From contig NZ_FNQT01000001.1 in NCBI RefSeq assembly GCF_900107665.1, positions 660,398 through 724,397 of the forward strand: DNA of 64,000 bases, in the 5' to 3' direction. The translations under genes and the position numbers were made by a program. Below are positions 40,466-47,067 of this stretch, piece by piece. Numbering within the stretch: the stretch's first letter is position 1; the number at the start of each line of letters is the position of its first letter. The notes beneath the pieces were generated by a model. That model was not told where the DNA came from. It ran no database searches and saw only the letters and a list, made by a program, of their open reading frames with translations. Source of the DNA: Haloplanus vescus. GTDB lineage: Archaea; Halobacteriota; Halobacteria; Halobacteriales; Haloferacaceae.

Positions 40466-40726
40466 ATGAATATCTCAGCGGACGTGGCGGCGGACCTCCG
40501 CGTCGCGGCGGTCGCGGCGGGCTGTACCGTCGCGCTCTCCCTCGTGCTTCGGTACGGACTCGGTATCGCCGCTAGCCCCCTCCTTCGTCTCTCGCCCATC
40601 GCCGTCTACTTCGGCTACCTGTTTCTGGGCAAGGGGTCGACCGGAAGCGCGTTCGAGAACCCGCGGCTCTGGATGGTGCTGACCGCCGTCGTGACGGTTG
40701 CGACCGGTGCCTACCTCGCGACGTAA
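40466..40726 (+). CDS. Small membrane protein of unknown function
   Basis: This 86-residue protein has three predicted membrane helices (about 10-28, 35-52, 66-85) with short loops (LGKGSTGSAFENPRLW). ATG 40466 lies 43 bases after the FKBP stop; a longer frame upstream overlaps that gene. The convergent RecA-fold gene follows with no gap. No family is recognised. Confidence 0.65.
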   Translation: MNISADVAADLRVAAVAAGCTVALSLVLRYGLGIAASPLLRLSPIAVYFGYLFLGKGSTGSAFENPRLWMVLTAVVTVATGAYLAT

Positions 40727-41353
40727 TCAGGCGATGTCGCGGCTGGTGTCGATGGTGACGCCGTCGGTGAGTTTGAGCTTGATCGTCTCTTCGAGCGAGC
40801 CACCGCCACGGAACTTCGGGACAGCCAGTCGGTTGACGATTTGAGACCCGTCGGTGTCGGTCTTGAGGTCGAACACCACGTCGGCCATGTGCTCGGTGAG
40901 CGCCCGATTCTCCGGTGCGTCGCGATGCATCGCGTGCAACACCGCTATCGACCCCGTGTTGACCATGTGGGTCTGGAGTTCGTTGAGGAACGCCCGGTAT
41001 CGGGTGGGGTCGGCCTCTTCGAGGGGGTCGACCACGTCGACGAGCAAGTTCGAACTCTCGGGGAGGTCCTTGACGAGACGGGTGGCGTTGTCGATGGGCG
41101 GGTAGTCGCCCGCGTCGCGAATCGTCAGGCGGTCGAGGCCGCCGCTGTAGCGGTCGACGGCGTCGCGGACCGCCTGCTCGGAGCGGACCGTCGTCACGTA
41201 CAGCGTCCCGCGCGTGGCGGCGATTTCATAGAGCAGGGATTCGGATTGGCTGGCCGGGTCGGCAGTCAGAAGCAAGATGCTCCCCGGCGGGATGCCGCCG
41301 TCGAGCTGCCGGTCGAGAACGGAGATACCCGTCGGAAGACGGTCAGCCATCAT
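40727..41353 (-). CDS. RecA-superfamily (KaiC/RadA-like) protein with degenerate P-loop
   Basis: This protein of about 208 residues has a KaiC-like opening (LPTGISVLDRQLDGGIPPGSILLLTA) but the Walker A site is TADPASQSESL, without GxxxxGKT, so ATP hydrolysis is doubtful. A Walker B-like strand is NLLVDVVDPL. It belongs to a haloarchaeal group of RecA-fold proteins of unknown function. Two tandem ATGs (41353, 41350) are possible starts. It is the last of three same-strand genes (YlbF-like, MinD-like, this one) with gaps of 31 and 17 bases. A paralogue is at 46240-46905. Confidence 0.75.
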   Translation of the reverse strand: MMADRLPTGISVLDRQLDGGIPPGSILLLTADPASQSESLLYEIAATRGTLYVTTVRSEQAVRDAVDRYSGGLDRLTIRDAGDYPPIDNATRLVKDLPESSNLLVDVVDPLEEADPTRYRAFLNELQTHMVNTGSIAVLHAMHRDAPENRALTEHMADVVFDLKTDTDGSQIVNRLAVPKFRGGGSLEETIKLKLTDGVTIDTSRDIA

Positions 41354-41370
41354 TCCTCATACGGACGGCA

Positions 41371-41994
41371 TCATAATATGTCTTCGCCAAAGGAGGTTGC
41401 GAGCTGCCGATACGCCGCCCGAGCGGCCTCGTCGTCGAGAATCGGCGGTTCGGCGGACGGAACGGACGCCACGACCGGACAGCCGAGCAACTCGGTGACG
41501 GCCTCGGGCGACGCCCGCGTGCGCGTCAACACCACCCCGACTGGTGGCGCGTCGAGCGTGCGGGCCATGGCCGCCGTCTTCGCGGCGTCGCGAAGCGCGG
41601 GCGCACAGAGCGTGCTGACGAGAAGCGTCGCGTCGGCCCGGCGAAGCGGTGCCGCGGCGTCCGGGCCGGCGCCCGCCGGACAGTCGACGATGGCCCGCCG
41701 GTCGCTCCGGGCCAACCGGTCGAGCGACTGGTCGACTGCGTCGGCATCGCCGAGTCGCGGCGCCGGCAGGAGCGTGACGGCCGAGTCGTCGGGGTGTGGC
41801 TGGGCGACGGTCGGAACGTCGTGCTCGCGGACGGCGGCGAGCGTCGGCGTGCGGTCGACGCCCGCGAGCGCGTGCAGATCCGGCATGTCGGGATCGGCGT
41901 CCGCGGCGACGACCGGCGCGTCAAGCGCCGTCGACAGGCCGAGTACCGTCGTCGTCTTCCCCACGCCGCCCTTGCCACCGGCGATAGCGAGCAT
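41371..41994 (-). CDS. MinD/ParA-family ATPase
   Basis: This 207-residue P-loop ATPase has the deviant Walker A GGKGGVGKTT (6-15), switch I-like DADPDMPDLH and a Walker B strand DRRAIVDCPAGAGPD. It lacks an obvious C-terminal amphipathic membrane-targeting helix, so classical MinD membrane oscillation is not supported. Haloarchaea carry several MinD paralogues, not all linked to division. It follows the YlbF-like gene by 31 bases; a TTCTTATCC in that gap could be its own TATA box. Confidence 0.82.
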   Translation of the reverse strand: MLAIAGGKGGVGKTTTVLGLSTALDAPVVAADADPDMPDLHALAGVDRTPTLAAVREHDVPTVAQPHPDDSAVTLLPAPRLGDADAVDQSLDRLARSDRRAIVDCPAGAGPDAAAPLRRADATLLVSTLCAPALRDAAKTAAMARTLDAPPVGVVLTRTRASPEAVTELLGCPVVASVPSAEPPILDDEAARAAYRQLATSFGEDIL

Positions 41995-42025
41995 GGGGCG
42001 GGTGGCCGCCCGACCGGATAAGAAG

Positions 42026-42400
42026 CTAGTCGTGACAGCAGCCGCCGGCCTCGCCGCCGAAGTCGACCGCCAGCGGCTCGGAGATGGCGCGGTTGACGGC
42101 TTCGAGCTGGTTCTGGAGCGCCTCCTGTGCGTTCAGGTACTCCTCCATCACAGGCATGGTGTGGAGTTCGTTCTGGGCCTGCTGGAGTTTGCCGATGTCG
42201 GATTGGGTCGCCTCGCCCGTCTCGCGGGCGGCGACGAATTCGTCGCGGAGTCGCTCGACCTCTGCAATCTTCTCTTGGGCTTCGTCGTCGTTCTCGACGG
42301 CTGCCTTCGCCTCCTCGAATCGCTGGTACGCGGGCGTGTCGGCGATTTCCTCGCCGAGTTCGTGACCGAGGTCCTCGAGCTTCGAGACGTTCGTGCTCAT
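42026..42400 (-). CDS. YlbF/YmcA-family helical protein with C-terminal Cys pair
   Basis: This 124-residue, all-helical protein matches the Com_YlbF family (EIADTPAYQRFEEAKAAVENDDEAQEKI, then ELHTMPVMEEYLNAQEALQNQLEAVNRAI). Bacillus members (RicA/YmcA, RicF/YlbF) form a complex influencing RNA processing and development and can bind Fe-S clusters. Here the tail GGEAGGCCHD has two cysteines and a His that could bind metal. ATG 42400 was chosen; the start is divergent from hyuA at 42492. The role in archaea is unknown. Confidence 0.8.
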   Translation of the reverse strand: MSTNVSKLEDLGHELGEEIADTPAYQRFEEAKAAVENDDEAQEKIAEVERLRDEFVAARETGEATQSDIGKLQQAQNELHTMPVMEEYLNAQEALQNQLEAVNRAISEPLAVDFGGEAGGCCHD

Positions 42401-42491
42401 GTCTCTCTCTCGTCGCGCCAGTCGCTTCAATTTGCCGCCTCGCTGGCCGGGGAAGCCGGATTTATCAGCCCCACTGCCGTGGCCCCTCGAT

Positions 42492-44525
42492 ATGGAAGCC
42501 GACACTCGAATCGGGGTCGACGTCGGCGGGACGTTCACGGACGTCGTCGTCGCCACCGAGTCGGGCCTCTCGATGCTGAAGGTGCCGTCGACGCCGGCCG
42601 CCCCGGACCGCGGCGTCCTCGACGGCCTCGACGCCGCGCGCGACACCACCGGCGTCGACCCGTCGGACGTGACCTTCTTCGGTCACGGAACCACCGTCGC
42701 CACCAACGCGCTCTTGGAACGCGAGTGGGCCGAGACGGCGCTCGTGACGACCGAGGGCTTTCGCGACGCGGTCGAAATCGGCCGCCAGACTCGACCGAGT
42801 CTCTACGACCTCAACGCGGAGAAACCGGCGCCAATCGTCGAACGCCACCGCCGACACGAGGTGCCAGAACGCCTCGACCGACGGGGCGAAGTCGTCACGC
42901 CATTCGACGAGTCGGCGGCCCGCGAGGTAGCGGAGCGGATTGCCGAGGGCGACGCCGAAAGCGTCGCCGTCGCCTTCCTCTTCGCGTTCGAGGACGACGC
43001 CCACGAGCGACGGATGCGCGACCTGCTGGTCGAGGCGGGCGTCGAGGGCGAGATATCGCTGTCGAGTGAGGTGCTCCCCGAGATTCGGGAGTACGAACGC
43101 ACGCTCGCGACGGCCATCAACGCGGCGCTCAAGCCGGTGATGAACCGCTATCTCGGCCGACTGGAGGAGGGCGTCGCCGACGCTGGCGTGCCCGCGCCGG
43201 TGAAGGTGATGCAGTCGAACGGCGGCGTCGCTTCGGCGGCGGCCACGCGAGATCGCCCGGTGAACACGTTGCTCTCGGGGCCGGCAGCGGGCGTCCGGGG
43301 CGCCGCCCACGTCGCCGGCGCGGCGGGGTTCGACGACGTACTCACGATGGACATGGGCGGCACCTCGTGTGACGTGTCGCTGGTTCGGGACGGCGACCCC
43401 GTCGTCACGACGGAGGGGCAGGTGGGCGACTACCCCGTCACCGTCCCAATGGTCGACGTGCACACCATCGGTGCGGGCGGTGGCTCGGTCGCGTGGGTCG
43501 ACGAAGGCGGGAGCCTCCGCGTCGGGCCGAAGTCCGCGGGCGCCGACCCCGGCCCGGTCTGTTACGGTCGGGGCGGGACGGAGCCGACAGTCACGGACGC
43601 CCACTGCCTCCTCGGGCGCATCGACCCCGACGCCTTCTTCGAGGGGAGCGCCGACGAGGCGGCGGTCCGCGACGCAGTGGCGGCGCAGGTGGCCGACCCC
43701 CTCGGCCTGAGCGTCGCGGAGGCGGCCCAGGGTATCGTCGACATCGCCAACGCGAACATGGAACGCGCTCTGCGGGTGGTGTCGGTCGAACGCGGCCACG
43801 ACCCGCGGGACCTCTCCCTCGTCGCCTACGGCGGCGCGGGCCCGCTTCACGCCGCAGAACTCGCGGCCGAACTCGACGTGCCGCGGGTCGTCGTTCCGCA
43901 GACGGCGGGCGTCCTCTCCGCGCACGGCCTCCTCATCAGCGACGCCGTCTACGAGGAGGGCGTCTCCGCGGTCCGCCCGTGGAGTGAGGTCGACCCTGCC
44001 GACCTGACGGAACGCTTCGAGTCGATGGCAGCGGAAGGACGGGAGCGTCTGGCTGCGGAGGGGTATCCGCCCGACCGGCGGCGCTTCGAGCGCGCGGTCG
44101 ACCTTCGGTACCGCGGCCAGTCCTTCGACCTTCGGGTGCCGGTGCCCGAGGGCCGACTCGACGCCGACGCGCTCTCGACCGTCGCCGACCGCTTCCACGA
44201 GCGCCACGAGCGACGGTACGGGCACGCCTCGCCGGACGAACCCGTCGAACTCGTGACGGTCCGCCTGCGCTCGCGGGGCGTCGTCGACCCCCCGGAGTTG
44301 GCGGTGACGGGAGACGGTGAGACAGAGCCCGACCCGGGGACGACGCGGACGGCGAGGTTCGACGGCGACGCAATCGAGACGCCGGTGTACGACCGCGGGA
44401 CGCTCGCACCCGGTGCGACCCTCGACGGGCCGGCAGTCGTCGAGGGCGGCGAGACGACCGTCGTCGTGCCGCCAGCGGCGAGCGCACACGTCGACGACTG
44501 GGGGAACGTGGTGGTGGAGCCATGA
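42492..44525 (+). CDS. hyuA: Hydantoinase/oxoprolinase subunit A
   Basis: This 677-residue protein is the ATP-binding half of the N-methylhydantoinase/5-oxoprolinase family, which couples ATP cleavage to ring opening of hydantoins or oxoproline. The N-terminal actin-like ATPase motif is RIGVDVGGTFTDVVV; GHGTTVATNALLER, VMQSNGG, TMDMGGTSCDVSL and GPLHAAELAAEL are further family blocks. ATG 42492 gives the canonical start. The stop overlaps the hyuB start (ATGA), so the two subunits are translationally coupled. Confidence 0.93.
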   Translation: MEADTRIGVDVGGTFTDVVVATESGLSMLKVPSTPAAPDRGVLDGLDAARDTTGVDPSDVTFFGHGTTVATNALLEREWAETALVTTEGFRDAVEIGRQTRPSLYDLNAEKPAPIVERHRRHEVPERLDRRGEVVTPFDESAAREVAERIAEGDAESVAVAFLFAFEDDAHERRMRDLLVEAGVEGEISLSSEVLPEIREYERTLATAINAALKPVMNRYLGRLEEGVADAGVPAPVKVMQSNGGVASAAATRDRPVNTLLSGPAAGVRGAAHVAGAAGFDDVLTMDMGGTSCDVSLVRDGDPVVTTEGQVGDYPVTVPMVDVHTIGAGGGSVAWVDEGGSLRVGPKSAGADPGPVCYGRGGTEPTVTDAHCLLGRIDPDAFFEGSADEAAVRDAVAAQVADPLGLSVAEAAQGIVDIANANMERALRVVSVERGHDPRDLSLVAYGGAGPLHAAELAAELDVPRVVVPQTAGVLSAHGLLISDAVYEEGVSAVRPWSEVDPADLTERFESMAAEGRERLAAEGYPPDRRRFERAVDLRYRGQSFDLRVPVPEGRLDADALSTVADRFHERHERRYGHASPDEPVELVTVRLRSRGVVDPPELAVTGDGETEPDPGTTRTARFDGDAIETPVYDRGTLAPGATLDGPAVVEGGETTVVVPPAASAHVDDWGNVVVEP

Positions 44526-46237
44526 CGGCCGTCGACCCCGTGACGCTGGAGGTACTTCGCAACGCCTGCGTCGCCGTCGCCGAGGAGATGAACGCGACGC
44601 TCGTGCGGACGAGTTACTCGCCGAACATCAAGGACCGCAAGGACTGCTCGTGTGCGCTGTTCGACGTGGTGGACGACGGCGACGGGCCGGCCGCCGAGAT
44701 GATAAGCCAGGCCGAGAACATCCCGGTCCACCTCGGGGCGATGCCCTACTCCGTCGCCGCGGCCATCGAGGCGTTCCCGCCGGAAGAACTGCACGCCGGC
44801 GACGCCATCCTCCTGAACGATCCCTTCCACGGCGGCGCCCACCTGCCAGACATGACGCTCGTGACGCCAGTCTTCGTCGACGGCGAGCTGGTCGCCGTCG
44901 CGGCCAACCGCGCCCACCACGCGGACGTGGGCGGGGGGCGCGCCGGCAGCGTCGCCGCCGACTCGACCGAAATCTATCAGGAGGGGCTTCGCGTGCCGCC
45001 CGTGAAACTGTACGAGGGCGGCGACCCCGTCGAGGACGTGTTCGACCTCCTCCTGACGAACGTGCGGACGCCCGACGAGCGCCGGGGCGACTTCCGCGCC
45101 CAGCGAGCGGCCAACCAGACGGCGGTCCGTCGCATCCGGGATATCGTCTCACGTCACGGCCTCGAGACGGTCCGCGCGGCGACGGACGAAATCAAAGAGT
45201 ACGGCGAGCGACGGATGCGCGCCGAAATCGACGCGCTCCCCGACGGCACCGTCACCTTCGAGGACTGCCTCGACGACGACGGGCAGGGGACCGAGAACGT
45301 GCGCATCGCCGTCGCGGTGACCGTCGATGGCGACGAGCTCGTCGTGGATTTCGAGGGGACGAGCGAGCAGGTTCGGGGCGCCGTCAACGCGCCACTGGCC
45401 GTCACGGCGAGTGCGACGTACTACGCGGTGCGCTGTGTGACCGACCCCGACGTGCCGCCGAACGCGGGGACGTATCGCCCCGTCGAGATTCGGGCGCCGG
45501 CGGGCACCGTCGTCAACGCGACGCCGCCCGCTGCCGTCGTCGGCGGCAACCTCGAAGTCTCTCAGCGCGTGACGGACGCGTTACTGGGCGCGTTCGGCGA
45601 GGAGGCCCCGGAGCGCTCCGTCGCCGCCGCGCAGGGGACGATGAACAGCGTCACCTTCGGCGGGACGGACCGCGACGGCGAGACGTTCGCCTTCTACGAG
45701 ACCATCGGCGGCGGCTACGGCGGCCGAGCAAGTGGGGACGGGATGGACGGCGTCCACGCTCACATGAGCAACACGCTCAACACGCCCGCGGAGGTGCTCG
45801 AAACCACCTATCCCGTCCGGGTCCGAGCGTACGCGTTCCGCGAGGACTCCGGCGGCGATGGCGAGTTCCGGGGCGGCCTCGGCCTGCGTCGAGATATCGA
45901 GGCCCTCGTCGACGACGTGGCGTTCAGCCTCCTCGCCGACCGGCGGCGCCACTCGCCGTACGGCCTCGCGGGTGGGGGCGACGGCGCTCCGGGCGAGGAC
46001 TACCTGCAGAAGGCTTCTGGCGAGACCGAGCGCATCCTGGCCAAATCGACACACGACCTCGACGCCGGGGACGTGGTGAGCGTGCGGACGCCCGGCGGCG
46101 GCGGGTACGGCGACCCGGCGGACCGCGACCCCGAGGCGGTGGCGCGAGACTATCGGCTGGGCGTCGTGTCCGCGGAAACGGTTCGAACGGCGTACGGGCT
46201 GGACCCGGCGGAGTTCGACGCCGCAGGGTCGGAGTGA
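44522..46237 (+). CDS. hyuB: Hydantoinase/oxoprolinase subunit B
   Basis: This 571-residue partner of HyuA has the family N terminus (VDPVTLEVLRNACVAVAEEMNATLVRTSYSPNIKDRKD) and the conserved HLGAMPYSV and NDPFHGGAHLPDM segments. Near the end are GGDGEFRGGLGLRRDIE and the Gly-rich TPGGGGYGDPADR closing motif. The physiological substrate (hydantoin, 5-oxoproline or an acetone/acetophenone carboxylase-type ketone) cannot be decided from sequence. The ABC importer at 6193-11790 is not linked. No third subunit is present, arguing against acetone carboxylase. Confidence 0.93.
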   Translation: MTAVDPVTLEVLRNACVAVAEEMNATLVRTSYSPNIKDRKDCSCALFDVVDDGDGPAAEMISQAENIPVHLGAMPYSVAAAIEAFPPEELHAGDAILLNDPFHGGAHLPDMTLVTPVFVDGELVAVAANRAHHADVGGGRAGSVAADSTEIYQEGLRVPPVKLYEGGDPVEDVFDLLLTNVRTPDERRGDFRAQRAANQTAVRRIRDIVSRHGLETVRAATDEIKEYGERRMRAEIDALPDGTVTFEDCLDDDGQGTENVRIAVAVTVDGDELVVDFEGTSEQVRGAVNAPLAVTASATYYAVRCVTDPDVPPNAGTYRPVEIRAPAGTVVNATPPAAVVGGNLEVSQRVTDALLGAFGEEAPERSVAAAQGTMNSVTFGGTDRDGETFAFYETIGGGYGGRASGDGMDGVHAHMSNTLNTPAEVLETTYPVRVRAYAFREDSGGDGEFRGGLGLRRDIEALVDDVAFSLLADRRRHSPYGLAGGGDGAPGEDYLQKASGETERILAKSTHDLDAGDVVSVRTPGGGGYGDPADRDPEAVARDYRLGVVSAETVRTAYGLDPAEFDAAGSE

Positions 46238-46239
46238 AC

Positions 46240-46905
46240 TCAGTGCGGGAAGTCGGTCCAACTGGTGTCGACGCCCGGTAGCCCGCGGACGCGGAGTTCG
46301 CGGTCGCCGTCGGTCTCTCGAAGCTCGATAACGACATCGAAAATCGAGGTGACGACGTTGACGAACTGTTCGTCGTGTGTGCTGGGGTCGAGCGTGAAGA
46401 CGCCGAGATAGCCGGCCGCGCTCGTCCGACGAGAGAGGACGTGCATGAACGAGAACGTGCGCTCGCTATCGACGTACTGGAGGAGCGTCGAGATGGAGAG
46501 AAACCCCAGTCGAAGGCGGTCCGGCGTCCCCATCTGCTCGACCGCTTGGGTGAACGCGACGCCCATGCCGGTGAGGTCGGCGGGCGAGTTGACGCGGTGA
46601 ATCGCGGGGTCGTCGTCGCCCGGCGCGCCCGTGGCGTCGACGACGCGGACGGCGTCGGGGGCGAACGAGACTCCGCGGTCGCCGAGCTGCGTCTGGATGC
46701 GCTGGGCGGGGTCGTCCGTCGTCATCACGACGACAGGGTCCATCGCGTCGGAGTCGGGGGCGAGCAAGTCGAAGACGAGCTGTCGCTTCCCGGACATTGA
46801 CGGGCCGGACACCAGCACGTTCAAGCCAGGGTCGAGTTCGTCGACGCCGGCCGGGAGGGCGTCGGAAACCGGGTAGGGACCGGGCTGGGCGTCGCCGTCA
46901 GCCAT
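46240..46905 (-). CDS. RecA-superfamily (KaiC-like) protein with partial P-loop
   Basis: This protein of about 221 residues is a paralogue of the one at 40727-41353. Its nucleotide-binding loop GPSMSGKRQL keeps Gly-Lys but lacks the final Thr/Ser of a strict Walker A. A Walker B-like strand is LRLGFLSIST. The RecA-type core runs to about 200, followed by VRGLPGVDTSW. ATG 46905 is the conservative start; a GTG at 46968 would add 21 basic residues and sits closer to a TATA-like GTTTAATT near 47020. It is convergent with hyuB, 2 bases apart. Confidence 0.72.
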   Translation of the reverse strand: MADGDAQPGPYPVSDALPAGVDELDPGLNVLVSGPSMSGKRQLVFDLLAPDSDAMDPVVVMTTDDPAQRIQTQLGDRGVSFAPDAVRVVDATGAPGDDDPAIHRVNSPADLTGMGVAFTQAVEQMGTPDRLRLGFLSISTLLQYVDSERTFSFMHVLSRRTSAAGYLGVFTLDPSTHDEQFVNVVTSIFDVVIELRETDGDRELRVRGLPGVDTSWTDFPH

Positions 46906-47067
46906 CGCGCGGCCCCCGTAGCGCCGCCGCTGATACCTGCCGGTCGTCAGCCCCCCGAACAGTCCCACCCTCTGTCCAATTCATGTTCGGCACCTACCAC
47001 TCTAGGCGGGACGCGCACAATTAAACCCTCTTGCCACCAGGGAGGTCGGAACGGGCATGCGGTGGCG

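Follow-up and report, generated by a model that had tools for sequence, protein, structure and literature searches.

The three minus-strand genes YlbF, MinD and DUF7125 in the Haloplanus window (the whole 64,000-nucleotide stretch of DNA analysed) form a run that is very probably of composite origin, the junction of two older blocks. We consider it probable that one block contributed a functional pair, a MinD3-type switch ATPase and a DUF7125 pseudo-ATPase, and the other an independent YlbF gene with a thiol-bearing tail; for the mechanism of either part our confidence is lower. In reading order, the run comprises a YlbF-like protein (42026–42400, minus strand, 124 aa; Pfam Com_YlbF, E=3e-24), a MinD3-type ATPase (41371–41994, minus strand, 207 aa; Pfam CbiA/MinD/ParA, E=1.2e-12) and a DUF7125 protein with a RecA/KaiC fold (40727–41353, minus strand, 208 aa; Pfam DUF7125, E=4.4e-83; KaiC, E=9e-10), separated by gaps of 31 and then 17 bases. 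On re-check, the coordinates, strand and gap lengths given in a preliminary description of this DNA were right, as were its family calls for all three genes (Pfam matches, with a predicted RecA/KaiC fold for the third). The trio is stable within one family, the Haloferacaceae, to which Haloplanus belongs, but it is a junction rather than a demonstrated complex.

Among 80 named YlbF loci, the order YlbF>MinD>DUF7125 was found in 64, nearly all from Haloferacaceae, while four carried YlbF and DUF7125 but lacked this MinD (by a looser profile test, one of the four has it) and one carried MinD without DUF7125; within Haloferacaceae, such a gene order is far from what chance would yield. The three-gene order looked for in other genomes thus holds within this family and breaks down beyond it, with neither MinD nor DUF7125 found at YlbF in any of 14 loci from other haloarchaeal families. 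In 11 of these 14 loci, dph2 lies divergently upstream of YlbF at a distance of 115–5628 bases (115–262 in the closest), and wherever dph2 was in range of a named YlbF locus (58 loci), the orientation was likewise divergent. MinD and DUF7125, in turn, are same-strand neighbours in 10 of the 12 loci of other families in which this MinD occurs, so the proposed pairing of a switch ATPase with an inactive RecA-fold protein is borne out as a neighbourhood kept across haloarchaeal families. There the pair often sits between pyrBI and FKBP26/CYTH/MAT (loci L108, L109, L217 and L220), and DUF7125 occupies the pyrBI-FKBP26/CYTH/MAT neighbourhood without this MinD in loci L230–L234. Because the trio is missing elsewhere, MinD-DUF7125 lies at pyrBI/FKBP26 and YlbF lies at dph2, we read the run as a junction of two blocks; the Haloferacaceae order therefore joins dph2 and YlbF to MinD3-DUF7125-FKBP26-CYTH-MAT.

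Within Haloplanus, the gap between YlbF and MinD ranges from 33 to 2493 bases, with inserts of 248–2493 bases in several genomes (in G010, two opposite-strand genes), and the gap between MinD and DUF7125 stays at 20–27 bases, free of inserts. Across 64 loci only one MinD-DUF7125 gap exceeds 300 bases, and it belongs to a split minD3. Conserved order alone is nevertheless weak functional evidence, because retention is just as strong for pyrB, FKBP26, CYTH and MAT, neighbours that are not evidently related to the pair. In Haloplanus, hyuAB occupy the former place of dph2, which no longer lies beside YlbF; in the window this site holds a hydantoinase/caprolactamase-like hyuA-hyuB pair (42493–46237, plus strand), divergent from YlbF.

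To look for promoter-like elements, we dereplicated the upstream regions of orthologues and set them against nulls made by circular shifting. The TATA box of leaderless haloarchaeal transcripts lies at −30 to −24, and AT content peaked at this position upstream of each gene: 0.70 for YlbF (background 0.33, null maximum 0.42; 105 upstream regions), 0.74 for MinD (background 0.36, null maximum 0.50) and 0.74 for DUF7125 (background 0.32, null maximum 0.49; 53 upstream regions). The MinD peak reached 0.74 where YlbF lies upstream and 0.73 where it does not. In the window, YlbF is preceded by the promoter-like element GCGGCAAATTGAAGC (42424–42438, minus strand; family consensus CCGGCAgnTTnAAaC, TATA-like part at −30 to −24), MinD3 by the TATA-like element TTCTTAT (42018–42024, minus strand; −30 to −24 of its start, just past the stop codon of YlbF as read along the minus strand) and DUF7125 by ATATTAT (41373–41379, minus strand; 23–29 bases before Met2, overlapping the last MinD3 codons). 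Judged from sequence, TTCTTAT is promoter-like and would serve as MinD3's own leaderless-type promoter, with read-through from YlbF into MinD3 possible in Haloferacaceae. A single three-gene operon was rejected, since each gene appears to have its own promoter-like element and YlbF stands apart in other families. The preliminary description had counted separation of the genes in relatives and separate promoters as evidence against the grouping; both apply to YlbF, and only the promoter half applies to the MinD-DUF7125 pair.

Different haloarchaeal families share the YlbF element CCGGCAgnTTnAAaC, in which the GC bases at −37 to −33 show unusual conservation and may be a regulator site. Its pattern had one match in the window against 0.5 expected by chance, and we therefore propose no regulon for it. 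A GG[C/A]CCA-like motif, conserved among MinD3 orthologues of several families, lies upstream of MinD3 at about −16 to −11 (window 42005–42010), after the TATA-like element and ahead of the start codon.

Presence/absence profiles were evaluated in genomes at least 90% complete, in which co-occurrence was not significant for MinD and DUF7125 (p=0.58), for YlbF and DUF7125 (p=0.20) or for YlbF and MinD (p=0.07; 0.20 with one Haloplanus). In the same set, MinD3 was unaccompanied by DUF7125 in 3 of 36 genomes, and nine genomes had DUF7125 but no MinD3. As presence does not co-vary significantly, the pairing of MinD3 with DUF7125 rests on adjacency.

The window MinD carries a deviant Walker A motif (GGKGGVGKTTT), with K8 and K13 of GGKGGVGKTT invariant in the orthologue alignment and D34 (switch I) and DCPAG (D104) invariant or nearly so. 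The alignment revealed no conserved C-terminal membrane-targeting amphipathic helix, the C terminus being short and variable. Locus-tag order and the Haloferax relatives identify the protein as orthologous to MinD3 (HVO_1634) of Haloferax volcanii, a species with four MinD homologues (PMC11621097; PMC11588486). The Haloferax orthologues are 55–60% identical to the window protein, and the Haloferax trio of the window type lies ~0.9 kb from dph2 (L103/L159), the H. volcanii dph2 being HVO_1631 (PMC8305020). These Haloferax loci show the gene order with both dph2 and FKBP26, and the window retains FKBP26 but not dph2. The Haloferax genome used for comparison shares an identical PCNA with H. volcanii, and a control search with DUF7125 returned a match in H. 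volcanii; a literature search on HVO_1632, HVO_1633 and HVO_1635 found no paper. MinD2 (HVO_0595) is similarly followed by a partner gene conserved in haloarchaea (HVO_0596, downstream, described in PMC11588486), but an identity with MinD2 was rejected because dph2 is HVO_1631 and the catalytic numbering disagrees (K16/D117 in MinD2 versus K13 and D96–D104 in the MinD3 group of Haloferax and Haloplanus); the loci also differ. The functions of MinD1–3 were given as undescribed in 2024 (PMC11621097). Growth and division are normal when all four H. volcanii minD genes are deleted (PMC11588486), and motility of the quadruple deletion equals that of the minD2/minD4 double deletion (PMC11621097). 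A natural disruption occurs in Haloferax massiliensis (L104:3993-7050; L167), where minD3 is split and ~1.7 kb separates its N-terminal part from DUF7125; the MinD match is partial, too, in genome G083 and in H. marisrubri (L168).

The third protein matches DUF7125 (PF23442) at 277.9 bits against a curated cut-off of 29.1. Its start is probably Met2 (41350), because orthologues start there. At the P-loop position it reads ADPASQSES, lacking the Walker A pattern GxxxxGK[ST] (no GK[ST]), and the pseudo-P-loop PASQS/AE is conserved in 26 aligned sequences with P33, S35, Q36 and E38 invariant; the broken P-loop noted in the preliminary description is thus confirmed, as a conserved family feature and not local decay. 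The AlphaFold2 (AF2) model (pLDDT 82.9) places this loop between the first long strand (26–31) and a helix (35–46), and its fold matches in the PDB are 2w0m, KaiC and FlaH (4yds). DUF7125 therefore shares its predicted fold with the RecA-superfamily ATPases KaiC and FlaH (ArlH) but lacks their P-loop lysine and Ser/Thr, with PASQS/AE in their place. No sequence relative was found in the PDB, and the link to KaiC comes from the fold search and Pfam. The C-terminal tail DTSRDIA, predicted at low confidence, is present in all but one of the 26 sequences, the exception being a paralogue (L085) with DTSRNIS.

The YlbF-like protein is helical in its AF2 model (27 sequences, pLDDT 88.8), and Foldseek aligned the model with RicA/RicF at TM 0.71–0.78 (matches 6prh, 6prk and 2pih). 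Its best conserved stretch among 45 orthologues is the tail D-F-G-x-x-A-G-G-C-C-x-D (also given as D-F-G-x-x-x-G-G-C-C-x-D), which ends in GGCCHD in the window. Of the Cys-Cys-His tail described earlier, Cys-Cys is invariant in the 45 orthologues and the next residue varies (H/Q/N/E). Residues 116–124 have pLDDT <50, and the tail is accordingly predicted to be disordered yet invariant. The window's own genome has one YlbF match (E<=0.001), YlbF of this type is missing from 11 of 60 haloarchaeal genomes, and a haloarchaeal YlbF has been reported as up-regulated in aerial hyphae (PMC10067837).

The suggestion that YlbF acts in a Bacillus-like Fe-S complex did not survive comparison with the Bacillus subtilis RicA-RicF-RicT (YmcA-YlbF-YaaT) system, with which the window protein shares the Com_YlbF fold and cysteines near the C terminus. 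In RicAFT, cluster 1 is held by RicT alone and cluster 2 by RicT C167, RicF C134/C146 and RicA C141 (PMC6751060). RicT/PSP1 was found in none of 60 haloarchaeal genomes, with a positive control search in B. subtilis, and a Bacillus-type Y-complex was rejected for its absence. Bacillus has two YlbF-type subunits (RicA and RicF) whereas the window genome has one. Near the C terminus, the window protein has an invariant vicinal Cys-Cys where the Bacillus cysteines are spaced. The tail may yet act in Fe-S, metal or redox chemistry; the remaining hints at Fe-S are indirect, namely the invariant disordered Cys-Cys and the conserved long-range linkage to dph2, which encodes an Fe-S enzyme.

A paralogue, HcsL (halo-CC-star protein, NCBIfam NF041416), is likewise a haloarchaeal YlbF-type protein ending in Cys-Cys. 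All 27 aligned window-type YlbF proteins match the NF041416 model, but the window protein scores 57.1 bits against a curated cut-off of 140 and is ~30% identical to HcsL; the assignment as HcsL was rejected on the score. HcsL itself ends in GGGCC, and in all seven loci (L235–L241, for example L238:2516-5333) it is preceded by an arsD-like gene and an adjacent arsA, both genes being named from sequence without a family search; its start overlaps the arsA end wherever both were called. HcsL may be a thiol carrier comparable to ArsD but built on a YlbF scaffold. A CC-type protein of ~62 aa comes after HcsL in most haloarchaeal arsenic operons examined, and a literature search on halo-CC-star proteins found no paper.

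In the reading that we favour, MinD3 and DUF7125 would form an old two-gene unit in which MinD3, a soluble deviant-Walker ATPase, switches with nucleotide state and, most likely, docks in one state on DUF7125. The latter, a KaiC/FlaH-fold pseudo-ATPase with a P-A-S-Q-S/A-E loop replacing the P-loop and a conserved C-terminal tail, could be an adaptor or scaffold for a target, and is the more persistent partner, being retained in lineages from which MinD3 has gone. YlbF would be a gene in its own right, with the divergently transcribed dph2 as its older neighbour, and would encode a RicA/RicF-like helical scaffold whose flexible tail carries the invariant Cys-Cys; we infer that these thiols handle a metal, a metalloid or an Fe-S cluster, or sense redox state. 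In an ancestor of Haloferacaceae, the YlbF block may have been placed upstream of the MinD3-DUF7125 block, each gene keeping its own promoter. The conserved pseudo-ATPase neighbour is a concrete candidate binding partner for MinD3. In the YlbF part, a scaffold of Bacillus type, lacking RicT, comes with an invariant Cys-Cys tail and is linked to dph2 (a gene of diphthamide and Fe-S chemistry) and, by way of HcsL, to an arsenic ATPase operon. More generally, two unrelated blocks that have met can look like one gene run conserved family-wide.

That MinD3 and DUF7125 are functionally unrelated, their adjacency being retained synteny like that of pyrB and FKBP26, is unlikely but has some appeal: the pyrBI-DUF7125-FKBP26-CYTH-MAT order is kept across families, presence of the two genes is uncorrelated, DUF7125 has its own promoter-like element and the quadruple minD deletion lacks a growth or division defect (PMC11588486). 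Against this, the genes share one strand with mostly short gaps across families, lie insert-free in Haloplanus and show a single long gap explained by a split minD3, and MinD3 is seldom found without DUF7125 among genomes at least 90% complete. The opposite extreme, one Haloferacaceae complex in which the YlbF Cys-Cys holds an Fe-S cluster or metal, MinD3 gates with ATP and DUF7125 senses or scaffolds, we regard as improbable. The identical order and strand in most named loci, the short gaps in Haloplanus, the invariant Cys-Cys tail and the position of HcsL after arsA, another deviant-Walker ATPase, would fit such a complex; set against them are the absence of the trio in other families, the inserts between YlbF and MinD, a MinD3 promoter-like element present even with YlbF upstream, the non-significant profiles, loci that lost MinD while YlbF and DUF7125 remain, and the missing RicT. 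Membership of YlbF in the unit, as first proposed, finds no support, given its separation from the pair in every other family tested, the Haloplanus inserts, the separate promoter-like elements and the non-significant profiles.

YlbF might instead be an accessory of Dph2, the [4Fe-4S] diphthamide enzyme, for example as an electron or iron donor replacing eukaryotic Dph3, an idea that we consider very improbable. The divergent arrangement with dph2 recurs in several families, with 115–262 bases between the genes in the closest; the reconstructed archaeal pathway consists of Dph2, Dph5 and Dph6 only, with Dph3, described as an iron-binding electron carrier, listed as additional in yeast. Yet this YlbF is missing from 11 of 60 haloarchaea, whereas Dph2 is present in 58 of 59 archaea, dph2 no longer adjoins YlbF in Haloplanus, neutral neighbour retention is common here, and Pyrococcus Dph2 and Dph5 gave diphthine formation in vitro. 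A broader version, to which we likewise assign little probability, makes the haloarchaeal Cys-Cys YlbFs a family of thiol carriers built on a RicA/RicF-like scaffold, in which HcsL, together with ArsD/ArsA, would handle As(III) and the window branch would serve Dph2 as an electron or iron donor in place of Dph3; MinD3-DUF7125 would be a separate switch/pseudo-ATPase pair.

Two further genes near the trio deserve mention. A RecA-fold protein (46240–46968, minus strand) belongs to DUF7504 and is also DUF7090-like. Between FKBP26 and DUF7125, an 86-aa protein (40466–40726, plus strand), without a Pfam or NCBIfam match and probably membrane-bound by its sequence, is kept at the same place in many Haloferacaceae.
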